Assembly: GCA_017304475.1 (NCBI GenBank)
Contig: JAFKKV010000009.1
Location: 124,001 to 188,000, forward strand
DNA from: Hyphomicrobiales bacterium
Lineage (GTDB): Bacteria; Pseudomonadota; Alphaproteobacteria; Rhizobiales; Phreatobacteraceae
Direction of reading: 5' to 3'
Length of the DNA stretch: 64,000 nucleotides
Part shown: positions 57,755 through 63,560 of the stretch, in pieces
Layout of the letters: every line of letters starts with the position of its first letter
Position numbering within the stretch: position 1 is the stretch's first letter
The notes under the pieces: generated by a model
Database searches by the model: none
Told to the model about the DNA's origin: nothing
The model's input: the letters and a program-made list of their open reading frames with translations, nothing else
Translations under genes and position numbers: made by a program

Positions 57755-58192
57755 ATGAGAAATCCAATGACCGCGACACCGCTCAAACTCTTCGCCTTCG
57801 ATGCCGACGATCTCGGCATCGTCTCCGCCCATCTGCAGGATGCCGTCGTCAAGGCCTCGGATCTGGCCTTCATCGCCAGGACCCGGCAATTCGCCTTCAT
57901 CTGCAACCGCTTCGACTGGTCGGCCGCGGAAGACGGCGCGCGCCAGCGGCGGCGCACCGGCGTCCGATTCGAGCGGGTCAGCGCGGTCAGCGCCAAGGGC
58001 GTGCCGAAGGGCGCCGATACGGTGCTGAACCTGCTGGCGCTGCGCTTCCAGCCGAGCGACGAGCCGGCCGGCACCATCGAGCTGGTCTTTGCCGGCGGCG
58101 CCGGCATGAAGCTGACGGTGGAATGCATCGAAGCCGCCATGGACGATCTCGGACCGATGTGGGCGACCGAGCAGAAGCCTGATCACGGCTGA
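57755..58192 (+). CDS. DUF2948 family protein
   Basis: A 145-residue soluble protein of the DUF2948 family, recognised by LKLFAFDADDLGIVSAHLQDAV, FAFICNRFDWSAAED, RTGVRFERVSAVSAKGV and LNLLALRFQPSDEPAGTIELVFAGG. Function unknown. In many alphaproteobacteria it lies just before hisD; here the next gene is an opposed LysR regulator, so that linkage is broken. An in-frame ATG five codons later (MTATPLK) could also be the start. Confidence 0.9.
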   Translation: MRNPMTATPLKLFAFDADDLGIVSAHLQDAVVKASDLAFIARTRQFAFICNRFDWSAAEDGARQRRRTGVRFERVSAVSAKGVPKGADTVLNLLALRFQPSDEPAGTIELVFAGGAGMKLTVECIEAAMDDLGPMWATEQKPDHG

Positions 58193-58202
58193 GCTTCCCG
58201 CC

Positions 58203-59087
58203 TCAGCAGCCGGCCGCGACCGTGCCGGCGAGATCGGCGACCGCCTCGATGGTGGCGGTGTCGGGCGTCGACCGCCAGGCCGCGACGAAGTCGAGATCGG
58301 GCAGGGACACCATGGTGTCGACGCGCTTGAGCTGGCCGGCGGTGAGCCGGTCGGCGGCGATCGGGCTCGGAATGGCAGCAACCCCCAATCCGTCCTCCGC
58401 CATGCGCAGAATGGTGGCGAGCGAGGCCGAGGCGTGAATATGGATCGGCGGCAGGCCCGGCCGCGAAAACAATTCGCGAATCGCCAGATAGGGCCGGGTA
58501 TCGCGGGAAAAGGTGACCACCGGATGGGCGGCGAGCGCCTCGAGCGTCACGCCCGCCGCCGGCAGGCCGAGGGCATCGCTGGCGAAGAACCCGAGTGGAT
58601 AGGTGCAGAGCGGCCGGCTCTTCAGGCCCGGCGCGGCCAGCGGGCCGAGCATGAAGGCCAGGTCGATCTCCTGGGCCACCAGCCGGTCGCGCAGGCTCGG
58701 TGAAATGTCGACCTCGATCTCCAGGGCGAGCCTCGGATAGGCCTTGGCCATGCGCTCGACGAAGCGCGACAGCCAAGTGTGGACGATGGTCTCGGCCACA
58801 CCCAGCCGCAGCGTGCCGCGAATGGCCGAGCGATCGGCAATGCCGTGCAGCATCTCGGCGCGCAGCCGGAGCAGGCGATCGGCATAGTCGAGCACGTGAC
58901 GGCCGGCCTCGGTGGGAATGACGTTGCGCTTCTCGCGTTCGAGCAGGCGCGCGCCGATTTCGGTCTCGAGCTGGGCAATGCGCTGCGACACCGCCGGCTG
59001 GGTGGTGTTCAGTTTCACCGCGGCCCGGTGGAAGCTCCGGAGCGTCGCCACCCAGACCAGGGTTTCGAGCGCTTTGAAATCAATCAT
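58203..59087 (-). CDS. LysR family transcriptional regulator
   Basis: A 294-residue LTTR. The winged HTH is at 1-60 (DFKALETLVWVATLRSFHRAAVKLNTTQPAVSQRIAQLE). The effector domain (about 90-290) has GTLRLGVAETIVHTWLSRFVE, LALEIEVDISPSLRDRLVAQEIDLAFM and DGLGVAAIPSPIA. It is divergent from the DUF1445 hydro-lyase/cupin/TRAP operon, with a dyad site in the 119-bp gap, so it is the likely regulator of that operon. The inducer is presumably the transported acid. Confidence 0.93.
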   Translation of the reverse strand: MIDFKALETLVWVATLRSFHRAAVKLNTTQPAVSQRIAQLETEIGARLLEREKRNVIPTEAGRHVLDYADRLLRLRAEMLHGIADRSAIRGTLRLGVAETIVHTWLSRFVERMAKAYPRLALEIEVDISPSLRDRLVAQEIDLAFMLGPLAAPGLKSRPLCTYPLGFFASDALGLPAAGVTLEALAAHPVVTFSRDTRPYLAIRELFSRPGLPPIHIHASASLATILRMAEDGLGVAAIPSPIAADRLTAGQLKRVDTMVSLPDLDFVAAWRSTPDTATIEAVADLAGTVAAGC

Positions 59088-59102
59088 TCTCCCATCGCTT
59101 CA

Positions 59103-59117
59103 ATAAGTAGAATTTAT
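59103..59117. promoter_or_regulatory. LysR-type (T-N11-A) operator in the divergent gap
   Basis: ATAA-N7-TTAT forms a 15-bp dyad that contains the T-N11-A pattern of LTTR binding sites (T59104 and A59116). It lies 16-30 bp upstream of the lysR start and about 90 bp upstream of the hydro-lyase start, a position suited to autoregulation and divergent activation. Confidence 0.55.
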
Positions 59118-59206
59118 CACTCCCGATCCAAACTTCGTATTGGACCCAATGCAAGAGGAATGTTGCACTTGGCTGACTTTCGGGAATTCGTGCTTGGGGG
59201 AGCTCG

Positions 59207-60022
59207 ATGGCTGTCGCTGCGATGAAGGCGTTCGATGCCGCTGGTCCGGCCGATCCGGTGGCGGTGAGGCACGCCGCCAGGGACGGCCGCCTGACCGGCC
59301 AGACTGCGGGGCTGGCGCGCGGCCATGTCCAGGGCAATCTGGCCATCCTGCCGCGCGATCTCGCCGCCGACTTCCTGCGCTTCTGCACGCTCAATCCGAA
59401 GCCCTGCCCGGTCATCGGCATGTCCGAGCCGGGCAATCCTGCCATTCCGGCGCTCGGTGCCGATCTCGACATCCGCACCGATCTTCCACGCTACCGGGTC
59501 TGGCGCCGGGGCGAACTCATCGACGAGCCGACCGACATCCGCTCGATCTGGCGCGACGATCTCGTCGCCTTCGTGCTCGGCTGCTCGTTCTCCTTCGAGG
59601 AGGCCCTGCTCGACGACGGCCTGCCGCTGCGCCACATCAGCTGCAATCTCGGCGTGCCGGTCTACCGCACCTCGATCGCCTGCGCCCCGGCCGGGCCCTT
59701 CGCCGGGCCGCTAGTCGTCTCGATGCGGTCGTTCAAGCCGGCCGACGCGATCCGCGCCGTGCAGATCACCTCGCGCTTTCCCTCCGTGCATGGCGCGCCG
59801 GTTCATATCGGGCTGCCCGAGGCGATCGGCATCCGGGATATCGGCCGGCCGGATTATGGCGACGCCGTCGAGGTCAAGGCCGACGAATTGCCGGTGTTCT
59901 GGGCCTGCGGCGTCACCCCCCAGGCGGTGATCGCCGCCAGCCGGCCGGAATTCGCCATCACCCACGCGCCCGGCGCCATGCTGGTGACCGATCTCAGGAA
60001 CAGCCGGCTCGCCGCGCTGTGA
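59207..60022 (+). CDS. Putative hydro-lyase, DUF1445 / D-glutamate cyclase family
   Basis: A 271-residue protein of the DUF1445 family (pyroglutamate or D-glutamate cyclase-related putative hydro-lyases). Visible blocks are [38 protein letters not shown] (with two Cys), [54 protein letters not shown] and [32 protein letters not shown]. These conserved Cys and His residues are typical of the family. The start is ATG at 59207 behind GGGGGAG. It overlaps the cupin gene by 4 nt. The substrate is presumably what the TRAP system imports. Confidence 0.88.
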
Positions 60023-60435
60023 CCGGGACAGAGCGTGTTGCCGATCCGGGTTTCGGCGCTTTCGCCAAGCGGCACCGGGAATTCTTCGACGCACTGGACG
60101 AGACGGGCTGGACCGCGGTCGCCGGTTATGCCGGGGTCGAGGAGAAGATCCTGTCCGGCCGGCTCGACCAGGCCGCGGGGACCGGCGCGGTCACCCGGCT
60201 CGCCCGCTGGGCCGCCGGTGCGACCGTCGCCCATCCCGTCAGGCATGACTGGTGCGAAGAGGTGTTCATCATCTCGGGCTCGCTGTCGATTGGCACGCCG
60301 GATGCAAAGCAGAACGCCGTCGTGCTGCCGGCGGGCACCTATGCCTGCCGGCCAGCCGATGTCGTGCACGGCCCGTTCTTCAGCGAGGCGGGCTGCCTCC
60401 TGATCGAGTTCATGTATTACCCGCCACCGCTTTGA
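60019..60435 (+). CDS. Cupin domain protein
   Basis: A 138-residue single-domain cupin starting at a GTG that overlaps the hydro-lyase stop (GTGA). The cupin core is at about 60-130: [25 protein letters not shown] and [29 protein letters not shown]. Metal ligands could be His (HPVRH), Glu (EEVF) and His (VVHGPF), matching the H-x-H-x-E ... H cupin pattern loosely. It may act as an isomerase, hydrolase or sensor on the pathway intermediate. Translational coupling with the hydro-lyase argues for a joint role. No exact family assignment. Confidence 0.82.
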
Positions 60436-60454
60436 CCGCCCAAGGAGGGCCCGC

Positions 60455-61534
60455 ATGACCCTGTTCCGATCCGCCGCCGCGACGGTCATCGCGCTTTGCC
60501 TCGGTGGTGCCGCGCCGGCCCTTGCCCAGGCCCTGCCGCCGGGACCGCCGGTGACCGTCCAGATGGTGACCCAGCCGGGCCCTGCTCTGCCGCAATATTC
60601 GCGCGTCGACATCCCCATGCTGCGCGACGGCCTGCCGCAACGCTCGGGCGGCCGCATTTCGGTGACCCTGGCGAGCTGGCCGGAGCGCAATCTCAACGGG
60701 CCGGAAATCCTGCGGCTGGTCCGCTCCGGACAGGTCGATATCGGCGCCGTGCCGCTCAACACCGCCTCAGGCGACGTGCCGCTCGCTGATGTCGTCGATC
60801 TCGCCGGCCTCAATCCGACGCTGCGCCAGTCGCGCCGGGTCGCCCAGGCCATGCTGCCCGAGCTGAACAAGGAGCTCGAGCGTTTCGGCGTCAAGATCGT
60901 GGCGATGTATCCGTTCCCGGCGCAGGTCTTCTTCTGCCGCGACCGCATCACCAGCCTCGCCGACCTGCGCGGCAAGCGCATCCGCACCGGCGGCGGCTCG
61001 TCCAACGACTTCGTCTCGACCATTGGCGGCCAGCCTACGGCCATCGGCTTTCCCGAGGTCTATGCGGCGCTCGAGCGCGGCGTGGTCGATTGCGCCATTA
61101 CCGGCACGGCTTCGGGCAATGGCGCGCGCTGGTTCGAAGTGACGCAAAGCCTCTACACGCTGCCGCTTTTCTGGTCGATCTCGGCCTATGTGGTGAACAT
61201 CGCCTGGTGGAACCGGCTCGATCCGGCGGTTCGCACCATGCTCGAAACCACCTTGACCGAGGTCGAAGAGGCGCAATGGCAGCTCGGCCGCGTGGCGACC
61301 GAGGACGGCATCGCCTGCAATACCGGCAAGCGCGAGGGCTGCAATCTCGGCCGGCTGGTCGACAACAAGCCGATGACCGCCTTCGAGCCGACGCCCGCCG
61401 ATAGCGAGGCCTTGCGCACCGTGCTGACCTCGACGGTCCTGCCGGCCTGGGTCAAGCGCTGCGGCGCGCGTTGCGGCGAGATCTACAACCGCGTGGTCGC
61501 GCCGATCACCGGCGTGCAGCTCGCCACCAACTGA
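60455..61534 (+). CDS. TRAP transporter substrate-binding protein (DctP family)
   Basis: Periplasmic receptor of 359 residues with a signal peptide (1-25, ending PALAQA). DctP-fold features are RLVRSGQVDIGAVPLNTASGDVPLADVVDLAGL, RDRITSLADLRGKRIRTGGGSSNDF, GGQPTAIGFPEVYAALERGVVDCAITG and SLYTLPLFWSISAYVVNIAWWNRL. The conserved Arg that binds the carboxylate of the ligand in most DctP proteins is probably the Arg of GKRIRTGG. Several Cys (FFCRD, VDCAI, CNTGKREGC) are unusual. The ligand is likely an organic acid; TRAP genes follow. Confidence 0.9.
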   Translation: MTLFRSAAATVIALCLGGAAPALAQALPPGPPVTVQMVTQPGPALPQYSRVDIPMLRDGLPQRSGGRISVTLASWPERNLNGPEILRLVRSGQVDIGAVPLNTASGDVPLADVVDLAGLNPTLRQSRRVAQAMLPELNKELERFGVKIVAMYPFPAQVFFCRDRITSLADLRGKRIRTGGGSSNDFVSTIGGQPTAIGFPEVYAALERGVVDCAITGTASGNGARWFEVTQSLYTLPLFWSISAYVVNIAWWNRLDPAVRTMLETTLTEVEEAQWQLGRVATEDGIACNTGKREGCNLGRLVDNKPMTAFEPTPADSEALRTVLTSTVLPAWVKRCGARCGEIYNRVVAPITGVQLATN

Positions 61535-61566
61535 CCGCCGCCGCCATTTCGGATCGAGGACCGGCC

Positions 61567-62187
61567 ATGCTCAACGGGATCATCTTGGCGGCGGCGACCT
61601 GCCGCCGCAGCCTGGCCGCGATCGGCCGGTGGATGGGTTATATCGCCGGCTGGGGCTTCATCGCGATTTCGGCGCTGATCACCTTCGACGTGCTGGCCCG
61701 GCGCTTTCTCGGCTTCTCGTCCCAGGCGACCACCGAATTGTCGGGTTATGCCCTGGCCTTCGGCATTGCCTGGGGTCTGGCCCATACCCTGTCGATGCGC
61801 GCCCATGTGCGCATCGACCTCTTGGTCAACCGGTTTCCCGACGCCATCCGCTACTGGCTGCACGTGGCGAGCCTCGCTTTTCTCTGCGTGTTCGTCGGCT
61901 ACATGTTCTACGGCGCCTGGCTGCTGGTCGACGAATCCGTGCTGTTCGGCGCGACCGACATCTCGATCCTGCGCACGCCGCTGGCCATTCCCCAGGGGCT
62001 CTGGGCCTTCGGCATCGGCGTCATGCTGCTCTTGATCGTCGCCATGCTCCTGGAAACGACCTGCCTGGTGCTGGCCGGCCGCGGCGCCGAGGCCGAGGCC
62101 ATGCTGCACACCCGCACCTATGAAGAAGAAGCGGCCGAGGCGCTCGAGGCCGTCGGCGACACGCCCGCCACGGAGTCCCGGCCATGA
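61567..62187 (+). CDS. TRAP transporter small permease (DctQ family)
   Basis: Inner-membrane subunit of 206 residues with four membrane helices (about 21-42, 58-78, 97-118, 143-165). The start is ATG at 61567 (frame opens 32 codons earlier within the end of the binding-protein gene). GYALAFGIAWGLAHTLSMRAHVRIDLLVNRFP is a DctQ signature. The last 35 residues form a charged cytoplasmic tail (TYEEEAAEALEAVGD). It overlaps dctM by 4 nt (ATGA). Confidence 0.9.
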   Translation: MLNGIILAAATCRRSLAAIGRWMGYIAGWGFIAISALITFDVLARRFLGFSSQATTELSGYALAFGIAWGLAHTLSMRAHVRIDLLVNRFPDAIRYWLHVASLAFLCVFVGYMFYGAWLLVDESVLFGATDISILRTPLAIPQGLWAFGIGVMLLLIVAMLLETTCLVLAGRGAEAEAMLHTRTYEEEAAEALEAVGDTPATESRP

Positions 62188-63560
62188 TCGCGATCGTCTT
62201 CCTGCTGATCCTCGCCGGCACCATGCTCGGCCTCAGCTTCACCGGATCCGGGCCGGCCAGCGGCCTGGTCGGCGAGATCCTGCTGCTGGTCGGCCTGTTC
62301 GCGGTGTTTTTCGGCATGGGCATCTATGTCGGCGCGGCGCTGGGCGTCCTCGGCCTGATCGTCGGTTATGCCTTTTCCGACAGGCCGTTCTGGCTGTTCC
62401 TCGGCCAGACGATCTGGAACCCGTCCTCCAGCTTCGTGCTGGTCGCGGTGCCCTTGTTCCTGCTGATGGGCGAGATCCTGTTGCGCGCCGGCCTGTCCGA
62501 CCGGCTCTACCGCACCTTGAACATCTGGCTGAATCGCATGCCCGGTGGGCTCCTGCATACCAATATCGCGTCCTCGGCGATCTTCTCGGCGATCTCGGGC
62601 TCGTCGGTCGCCACCGCTGCCACCATGGGCTCGGTGGCCCTGCCCTTCTTCAAGGGCCGGCCCTATGACCCGCGCATGGTGCTCGGCTCGCTCGCCGCCG
62701 GCGGCGCGCTCGGCAATCTCATCCCGCCGGGCATCACCTTCATCATCTACGGGCTGATCACCGAAACCTCGGTCGGCGCGCTCTATATCGCCGCGGTCGG
62801 CCCGAGCATCCTGGTGGTCGTGCTGTTCACCCTGGTGATCCTCTTGAGCGCCAAGAAGGCCGCGCCGCGCGACCCCAACGCGCCGCGCATCCCGATGCGC
62901 GAGAAGCTGGCGAGCCTCGTCGACCTGACGCCGACCGCGGCGCTGATTCTGATCGTGCTCGGCACCATCTATGGCGGGCTGGCGACGCCGACGGAATCGG
63001 CGGCGCTCGGCGTGATCGCCGCCATCGTCTTCGCGGCGATCGGCGGCAAGCTCAGCTGGAAAATGCTCAACGACTCGGCGGAAGCGACCGCCCGCAACAC
63101 CGCGATGATCGGCCTCATCCTGTTCGGCGCCTATGTCCTGAACTTCGTGTTCACCGCGCTCGGCGTGCCCCAGGCGCTGGCCAAGCTCGTTTCCGAAATG
63201 CCGCTGCCGCCCTGGGCGATCATGATGATGATCATCGGCTTCTACCTGGCGCTGGGGACCTTCATGGAAGGCTTCTCGATGATCGTCACCACGATTCCCG
63301 TGATCTTTCCCGTCGTCACCGCCCTCGGCTACGACCCGATCTGGTTCGGCGTGATCGTGGTCATGCTGGTCGAGATCGCGCTGATCTCGCCGCCCGACGG
63401 CACCGTGCTCTATGTGCTGCAGGGCATGCGCAGGGATGGCGGCCCGATATCGGATGTTTTCTCCGGGGTGATGCCGTTCATGGGGGTCTATATCCTGGCC
63501 ATCGCCATCCTGATGGCATGGCCCGGCATCGCGCTCTGGCTGCCGGGCGTGATGAAGTAA
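62184..63560 (+). CDS. TRAP transporter large permease (DctM family)
   Basis: Sodium-coupled transport subunit of 458 residues with about 12 membrane segments. The DctM signatures are MGEILLRAGLSDRLYRTLNIWLNRMPGGLLHTNIASSAIFSAISGSSVATAATMGSVALP, NLIPPGITFIIYGLITETSVG and a C-terminal half repeat with ALGYDPIWFGVIVVMLVEIALISPPDGTVLYVLQG. The N-terminal 45 residues hold an extra hydrophobic segment before the core, as in many single large permeases. Last gene of the operon; a GC-rich hairpin follows at 63591-63629. Confidence 0.93.
   Translation: MIAIVFLLILAGTMLGLSFTGSGPASGLVGEILLLVGLFAVFFGMGIYVGAALGVLGLIVGYAFSDRPFWLFLGQTIWNPSSSFVLVAVPLFLLMGEILLRAGLSDRLYRTLNIWLNRMPGGLLHTNIASSAIFSAISGSSVATAATMGSVALPFFKGRPYDPRMVLGSLAAGGALGNLIPPGITFIIYGLITETSVGALYIAAVGPSILVVVLFTLVILLSAKKAAPRDPNAPRIPMREKLASLVDLTPTAALILIVLGTIYGGLATPTESAALGVIAAIVFAAIGGKLSWKMLNDSAEATARNTAMIGLILFGAYVLNFVFTALGVPQALAKLVSEMPLPPWAIMMMIIGFYLALGTFMEGFSMIVTTIPVIFPVVTALGYDPIWFGVIVVMLVEIALISPPDGTVLYVLQGMRRDGGPISDVFSGVMPFMGVYILAIAILMAWPGIALWLPGVMK

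Follow-up and report, generated by a model that had tools for sequence, protein, structure and literature searches.

A LysR-regulated operon of a DUF1445 protein, a cupin and a TRAP transporter in a Hyphomicrobiales bacterium, possibly for the scavenging of pyroglutamate or a related carboxylated lactam

We analysed a stretch of 64,000 nucleotides (hereafter the window) from a Hyphomicrobiales bacterium of the family Phreatobacteraceae (GenBank assembly GCA_017304475.1, contig JAFKKV010000009.1, positions 124,001 to 188,000 of the forward strand), in which a LysR-family regulator gene stands opposite five genes for a DUF1445 protein, a small cupin and a tripartite ATP-independent periplasmic (TRAP) transporter. 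The locus is a genuine and conserved bacterial operon. That it serves as a compact system for taking up and converting one carboxylated compound, as first suggested from the DNA letters, is well supported, because DUF1445 and TRAP genes occur together at 42 of 80 sampled loci and the cupin adjoins DUF1445 in two bacterial classes. As to the compound, we tentatively favour a LysR-regulated operon for scavenging pyroglutamate (5-oxoproline), perhaps in its D form, or a closely related carboxylated lactam; DUF1445 would act on the ring. We place this reading a little short of probable. The features concerned are as follows, in window coordinates.

58203-59087, minus strand: LysR-family regulator gene, divergent from the operon (PF00126, E 7.6e-21; PF03466, E 1.4e-37)
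59104-59116, no strand: T-N11-A site, candidate LysR box, present in 13/13 genus rows (11 distinct)
59127-59144, no strand: dyad TCCAA-N8-TTGGA with perfect 5-nt arms, the most strongly conserved intergenic block, retained in 13/13 genus rows
59207-60022, plus strand: DUF1445 / D-glutamate cyclase family gene ('putative hydro-lyase'), proposed lactam-ring enzyme (PF07286, E 5.5e-64; NF003969, E 3.9e-125)
60019-60435, plus strand: cupin_7 (ChrR-like) gene with a GTG start (PF12973 Cupin_7, E 4e-10)
60455-61534, plus strand: DctP, TRAP substrate-binding protein with six conserved Cys (PF03480, E 1.6e-24)
61567-62187, plus strand: DctQ, TRAP small membrane subunit (PF04290, E 2.3e-20)
62184-63560, plus strand: DctM, TRAP large membrane subunit (PF06808, E 1.3e-80; TIGR00786 above cut-off)

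Genes were called from open reading frames (ORFs), their translations and matches to hidden Markov models, which bear out the original prediction of five tightly spaced genes opposite a LysR gene. Two pairs overlap by 4 nt, namely the DUF1445 stop with the cupin GTG start (60019) and DctQ with DctM, and the remaining spacers are 19 nt (cupin to DctP) and 32 nt (DctP to DctQ). The TRAP set is complete, with DctP, DctQ and DctM in one operon and each above its Pfam cut-off. The source assembly (genome G000; 8.38 Mb, 5.44% contamination) holds three DUF1445 copies, and the nearest named relatives of the window copy are in Phreatobacter genomes. Within the genus, DUF1445 was found in 12/12 genomes, the source included, with the cupin directly adjoining it in all 12, as read from match coordinates in ten genomes and from labelled loci in G249 and G250. 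LysR, DctP, DctQ and DctM are in place at all nine labelled genus loci (L001-L004, L109, L121, L122, L211, L212), two of which repeat a genome (L001/L212 and L003/L211 are one genome each, seen twice). A DUF2948 gene (57755-58192) adjoins the LysR gene and is retained as its neighbour in L001-L004, which places the operon at a stable chromosomal position.

The neighbourhoods of DUF1445 were surveyed in two samples, with labels assigned by BLAST to cluster members, a procedure that misses distant neighbours. The nearest survey comprised the best 80 of 406 DUF1445 relatives, labelled within 7 kb and with many contigs cut. The even sample (n=80) comprised all 62 non-own matches of the class search and 18 matches of the phylum search from outside the class, phylum-search matches from within the class being left out unless the class sample already had them; with three own-genus paralogs (L106, L107, L110) it makes a set of 83. 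Among the nearest 80 loci the labels were DUF2848 (33), LysR (32), DctM (30), window-type DctP (27), LivK-like (18) and amidase (14), followed by pyroglutamate-type DctP (12), HyuAB (10), DUF4392 (6) and cupin (5). The set of 83 gave DctM at 42 loci, any 5-oxoprolinase gene at 36, window-type DctP at 32 and LysR at 31, with DUF2848 (11), amidase (10), pyroglutamate-type DctP (7) and cupin (1) being rarer. In the even sample alone a TRAP transporter, meaning a labelled DctM on either strand of the fetched stretch (including a few of other TRAP kinds), was present at 42/80 loci, and PxpA, PxpC or HyuAB at 35/80. PxpA was not among the labels of the nearest survey or of the cupin-locus survey; it was later covered by a direct tblastn search with PxpA, PxpB, PxpC and HyuAB, which found matches at 35/80 loci of the even sample and 20/80 of the nearest. 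Fourteen cupin loci without DUF1445 served as a comparison: none had a labelled DctM (0/14 against 42/83, Fisher p 0.0002) and none had a match to PxpA, PxpB, PxpC or HyuAB (0/14). DUF1445 is thus shared with TRAP transporters well beyond the window, and the cupin-DUF1445-TRAP set occurs also in a family of another class, so that the gene set is not private. The neighbourhood survey that the original prediction had called for did find the three together within the genus and in this second family; elsewhere the cupin is usually absent.

The partners of DUF1445 at the 42 TRAP loci divide into an oxoprolinase gene only (14), DUF2848 or amidase only (7), both (5) and neither (16). Oxoprolinase genes are part of the arrangement in L136 and L138, where the order is LysR-DUF1445-DctP(window type)-DctQ-DctM-PxpB-PxpC-PxpA, the three Pxp proteins of L136 being verified by Pfam and NCBIfam. 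In L197 and L199 a pyroglutamate-type DctP occupies the same slot, beside PxpA and PxpC. At five further loci (L005, L007, L008, L010, L015) DUF1445 accompanies a TRAP operon of the 2pfy-like pyroglutamate type, with a HyuAB hydantoinase/5-oxoprolinase gene in divergent orientation, fused in L007. A DadA-like oxidoreductase dependent on flavin adenine dinucleotide lies upstream of LysR-DUF1445-TRAP in L035, L047, L080 and L127, with Pxp genes following in L035, L047 and L127 (L080 is cut), an arrangement that hints at D-glutamate oxidation. Three Ferrovibrio loci have DadA close to the operon. A third DUF1445 context is seen at Reyranella-type loci (L023, L025, L029, L033, L044, L045 and others), where DUF1445 stands among genes for short-chain dehydrogenase/reductase, DUF2848, coenzyme A-transferase III and amidohydrolase or Asp/Glu-racemase proteins and no TRAP gene is labelled.

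TRAP receptors for pyroglutamate have precedent in DctP6 and DctP7 (2pfz and 2pfy) of Bordetella pertussis, which were reportedly described by Rucktooa in 2007. They are the nearest to the window DctP both by sequence, 2pfy and 2pfz being its closest PDB matches, and by VIA-align, and close relatives of them occur near DUF1445 and HyuAB. An AlphaFold model of the window DctP (predicted local distance difference test, pLDDT, 86.8) was compared with 1000 chains by VIA-align, and ranks 1-3 fell to 2pfy (Z 34.4), 2pfz (33.9) and 6wgm (32.9), all pyroglutamate receptors according to their PDB titles. Moreover, a profile-profile comparison matched the window DctP (99.9%, E 5.8e-31) to the pyroglutamate-type DctP found at neighbouring DUF1445 loci, which is itself tied to 2pfy (E 3e-97), 2pfz and 6wgm through the L008 protein. 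A profile search of A1 against the PDB at E 1e-30 gave no match. Two papers place 5-oxoprolinase in the reported neighbourhood of pyroglutamate-binding TRAP receptors (PMC13274462, PMC12344293), and the former gives DctP7 a dissociation constant (K_D) of 0.3 uM with a 5-oxoprolinase gene in the vicinity. PMC13274462 also describes a pxpTABC operon of C. glutamicum. Like such PxpABC or HyuAB operons, 35/80 sampled DUF1445 loci carry these enzymes; unlike them, the window operon, and indeed the whole window, has no 5-oxoprolinase gene.

The remark that the binding protein has unusual cysteines proved right. Cys 161, 213, 288, 296, 336 and 340 are invariant in 20 aligned sequences, which makes them the mark of a DctP subfamily and not a peculiarity of the window. 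In a wider set, six Cys are present in 18/36 window-type DctP ORFs and four in 14/36, while 11/12 pyroglutamate-type ORFs have none; from these alignments the six are probably subfamily disulfides.

The DUF1445 protein is an unambiguous family member (PF07286, 214.8 bits against a cut-off of 25, covering profile positions 1-143 of 143; NF003969, 416.1 against 324), with 3db9 and 2pif as its PDB relatives. Its AlphaFold model (pLDDT 88.7) shares the fold of 2pif and 3db9 (VIA Z 32.2 and 31.7, root-mean-square deviation (rmsd) 2.6 and 1.8, over 250 and 233 residues). The nearest fold outside the family is the NrpR-like 3nek (Z 10.0, rmsd 3.6, 168 residues aligned), the next match scoring Z 5.3, and no enzyme rose above background among the VIA rows; Foldseek TM-scores for 3nek are low (0.38 and 0.45). 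NrpR has 2-oxoglutarate as a ligand, according to PMC11957540, and the likeness is no more than suggestive of a link between DUF1445 and C5 dicarboxylates. From this resemblance one could argue that DUF1445 is no catabolic enzyme and instead senses or regulates C5-dicarboxylate supply, binding 2-oxoglutarate or glutamate in an NrpR-like fold, all the more as the literature examined reports no enzymatic activity for, and assigns no function to, the DUF1445 domain alone. However, charged and polar residues are invariant in large number across 34 DUF1445 sequences, as in an active site, DUF1445 is often paired with catabolic enzymes and transporters, and the operon already has a LysR regulator. 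We consider a sensory role improbable.

The chemistry proposed for DUF1445 derives from the mammalian D-glutamate cyclase, in which DUF1445 is fused to DUF4392 (PMC5132392, PMC5339696). Bacterial DUF1445-DUF4392 gene pairs also exist, at 6/80 of the nearest loci; the window operon differs in having no DUF4392 gene. The other two DUF1445 copies of the source genome, L106 (G000:C77:134000-150000) and L107 (G000:C76:75000-92000), lie in Liv-type ABC (ATP-binding cassette) operons, each with a DUF4392-like gene; one of the two loci also holds PxpB and PxpC, the other a dihydrodipicolinate synthase-like gene and DUF2891. YcsI of Bacillus subtilis is presumably the DUF1445 member of its operon. That operon comprises ycsF, ycsG, ycsI, kipI and kipA according to PMC10448178.

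If pyroglutamate or a close lactam is the substrate, LysR would control the operon in an inducer-dependent manner and periplasmic DctP would capture the acid, perhaps through the conserved Arg177. DctQM would then import it using the sodium gradient, the usual drive of TRAP transporters, and DUF1445 may open or close the lactam ring without ATP, in chemistry of the D-glutamate / 5-oxo-D-proline type. The finishing steps would fall to enzymes encoded elsewhere, with 5-oxoprolinases elsewhere in the genome handling the L form. PxpA-family genes are present in 11/12 genus genomes and Hydantoinase_B genes in 12/12, both families being broader than 5-oxoprolinase.

Several observations weigh against this proposal. 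On the side of the enzyme, a fold in common with NrpR does not establish a function for DUF1445; PMC5339696 reports cyclase activity (D-glutamate to 5-oxo-D-proline) for the full two-domain mouse protein, and its authors locate the racemase homology in DUF4392, not DUF1445. The activity is thus known for the full mammalian protein only. On the side of the receptor, the fold is common to all TRAP receptors: in VIA-align 6wgm (Z 32.9) is tied with 4ovq (Z 32.8) and receptors for other ligands score close, and by Foldseek 2pfy comes first and 4n4u second, with 2pfz in sixth place and 6wgm in eighth, outranked by sialic-acid and other receptors. The window DctP shares only about 22% identity with the pyroglutamate receptors. 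In a tree of 67 DctP sequences, rooted on four pyroglutamate-type members, it is separate from that subfamily and falls in a clade of 11 with a support of 1.0 (the window, L001-L004, L006, L012, L016, L020, L191, L207). The partners in this clade are cupin (7), DUF2848 (5) and amidase (2), the labels for L191 and L206-L208 having been set by hand and the PxpA of L191 left out there. A tie of this clade to 5-oxoprolinase was not borne out, since 10 of its 11 loci have no tblastn match to PxpA, PxpB, PxpC or HyuAB in the sequence covered, which is 64 kb for the window and 13-21 kb for the remaining loci. In L191, PxpA and PxpB lie on the opposite strand at a distance of about 6 kb, as they do in L209, a locus from the same genus. 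The case for pyroglutamate therefore rests mainly on the wider family and the slot in the operon, less on the clade of the window DctP itself, whose ligand may have changed.

These partners give weight to another explanation, that the importer takes a different carboxylated amide or imide and that an ancestral set of cupin, DUF1445, TRAP, DUF2848 and signature amidase was reduced in the window genus, which kept uptake, DUF1445 and the cupin and has the rest elsewhere. The full set, in the order LysR-cupin-DUF1445-DctPQM-DUF2848-amidase, stands in L191, L206, L207 and L208, the families being the same as in the window and forming one regulated unit; there the cupin precedes DUF1445 and DUF2848 and amidase follow, neither of which is in the window operon. 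Cupin paralogs elsewhere in the order (41-47% identity) point the same way, lying by DUF2848 in 10/12 and by amidase in 6/12 loci without DUF1445 (12 examined of 33 places listed). DUF2848 we take to be fumarylacetoacetase-like. NCBIfam has no family for DUF2848, the window cupin or the L208 cupin, and gives no exact substrate for the amidase (best NF005460, 'amidase'). However, five TRAP loci of the even sample (L127, L191, L198, L200 and L201) have PxpA or PxpC alongside DUF2848 or amidase, which shows that one partner set does not preclude the other, and pyroglutamate remains the ligand of the nearest solved receptors. We think an amide or imide importer possible, with more doubt than belief.

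The cupin is the least certain part of the system. His76, Glu80, Glu81 and His117 are invariant in 16/16 aligned cupin sequences, which fits a metal cupin with residues of the metal-ligand type. In a family of another class, among 200 genomes, the cupin is present in 6 and DUF1445 in 51, and the two are side by side in five of the six cupin genomes (genome-level co-occurrence p 0.004). One of these five, G925, has a partial cupin match and its locus (L209) ends at a contig end with no cupin label; the sixth genome, G793, has a weak cupin match and no DUF1445 match. The adjacency thus recurs in two classes, and its occurrence in the second family means that the cupin is not confined to the genus. 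There the cupin lies upstream of DUF1445, in the window genus downstream, which suggests more than one joining. The converse idea, that the cupin is always paired with DUF1445, fails on L111 and L112, loci from two genomes of another family in which a cupin 65-72% identical to that of the window has no DUF1445 nearby; the L111 gene (L111:7845-8563, 65% identical) overlaps a small antibiotic-biosynthesis-monooxygenase-like gene. Such loci, together with the general scarcity of the cupin (5/80 nearest loci, of which four are in the genus, and 1/80 in the even sample), would suit a small independent cupin that landed between DUF1445 and DctP by chance and plays no part in the pathway. We give this little credence, given that the cupin adjoins DUF1445 throughout the genus and, on the opposite side, recurrently in a distant family. 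Our guess is that the cupin acts on the product or a side product, or tunes or helps DUF1445.

The 119-nt gap between LysR and DUF1445 (59088-59206) holds nine T-N11-A matches, so the motif alone is no better than chance and was dropped as evidence for a LysR site. The T-N11-A dyad that had been noted here fares better by conservation, the match at 59104-59116 being kept in all genus rows. It is the weaker of two conserved blocks, the stronger being the TCCAA-N8-TTGGA dyad. Judged from the letters, both are candidate LysR or promoter sites, and the dyad could be an operator or a promoter; a sigma-70 promoter scan detected none (shuffle mean 0.6).

How far the system is undescribed, as it had been called, depends on the part considered. 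Each gene family is already known, as is TRAP uptake of 5-oxoproline tied to 5-oxoprolinase in Bordetella, and DUF1445 lies beside both the pyroglutamate receptors and the 5-oxoprolinase genes. In the open-licence literature (bioRxiv preprints apart) we found no paper linking DUF1445 to a TRAP transporter, and none describing the cupin-bearing branch with DUF2848 and amidase. That branch might be an undescribed catabolic route for lactam acids, in which DUF1445 (as an ATP-free ring-opening enzyme with the fold of the 2-oxoglutarate sensor NrpR), a metal cupin, DUF2848 and amidase replace 5-oxoprolinase and a Cys-rich TRAP receptor subfamily takes up not L-pyroglutamate but another carboxylated lactam or imide; we regard this as rather unlikely.

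DUF1445 occurs widely among bacteria and supplies one of two domains in a human mitochondrial enzyme; two of its structures have been solved. The survey connects it to 5-oxoproline receptors and enzymes, and to a second set of partners consisting of the cupin, DUF2848 and amidase. Loci of the L005 type, with DUF1445, a pyroglutamate-type TRAP transporter and HyuAB, are well suited to testing the part of DUF1445 in pyroglutamate utilisation. Taken together, the two partner sets provide two short ligand lists and a direct route to establishing which domain of D-glutamate cyclase is catalytic.

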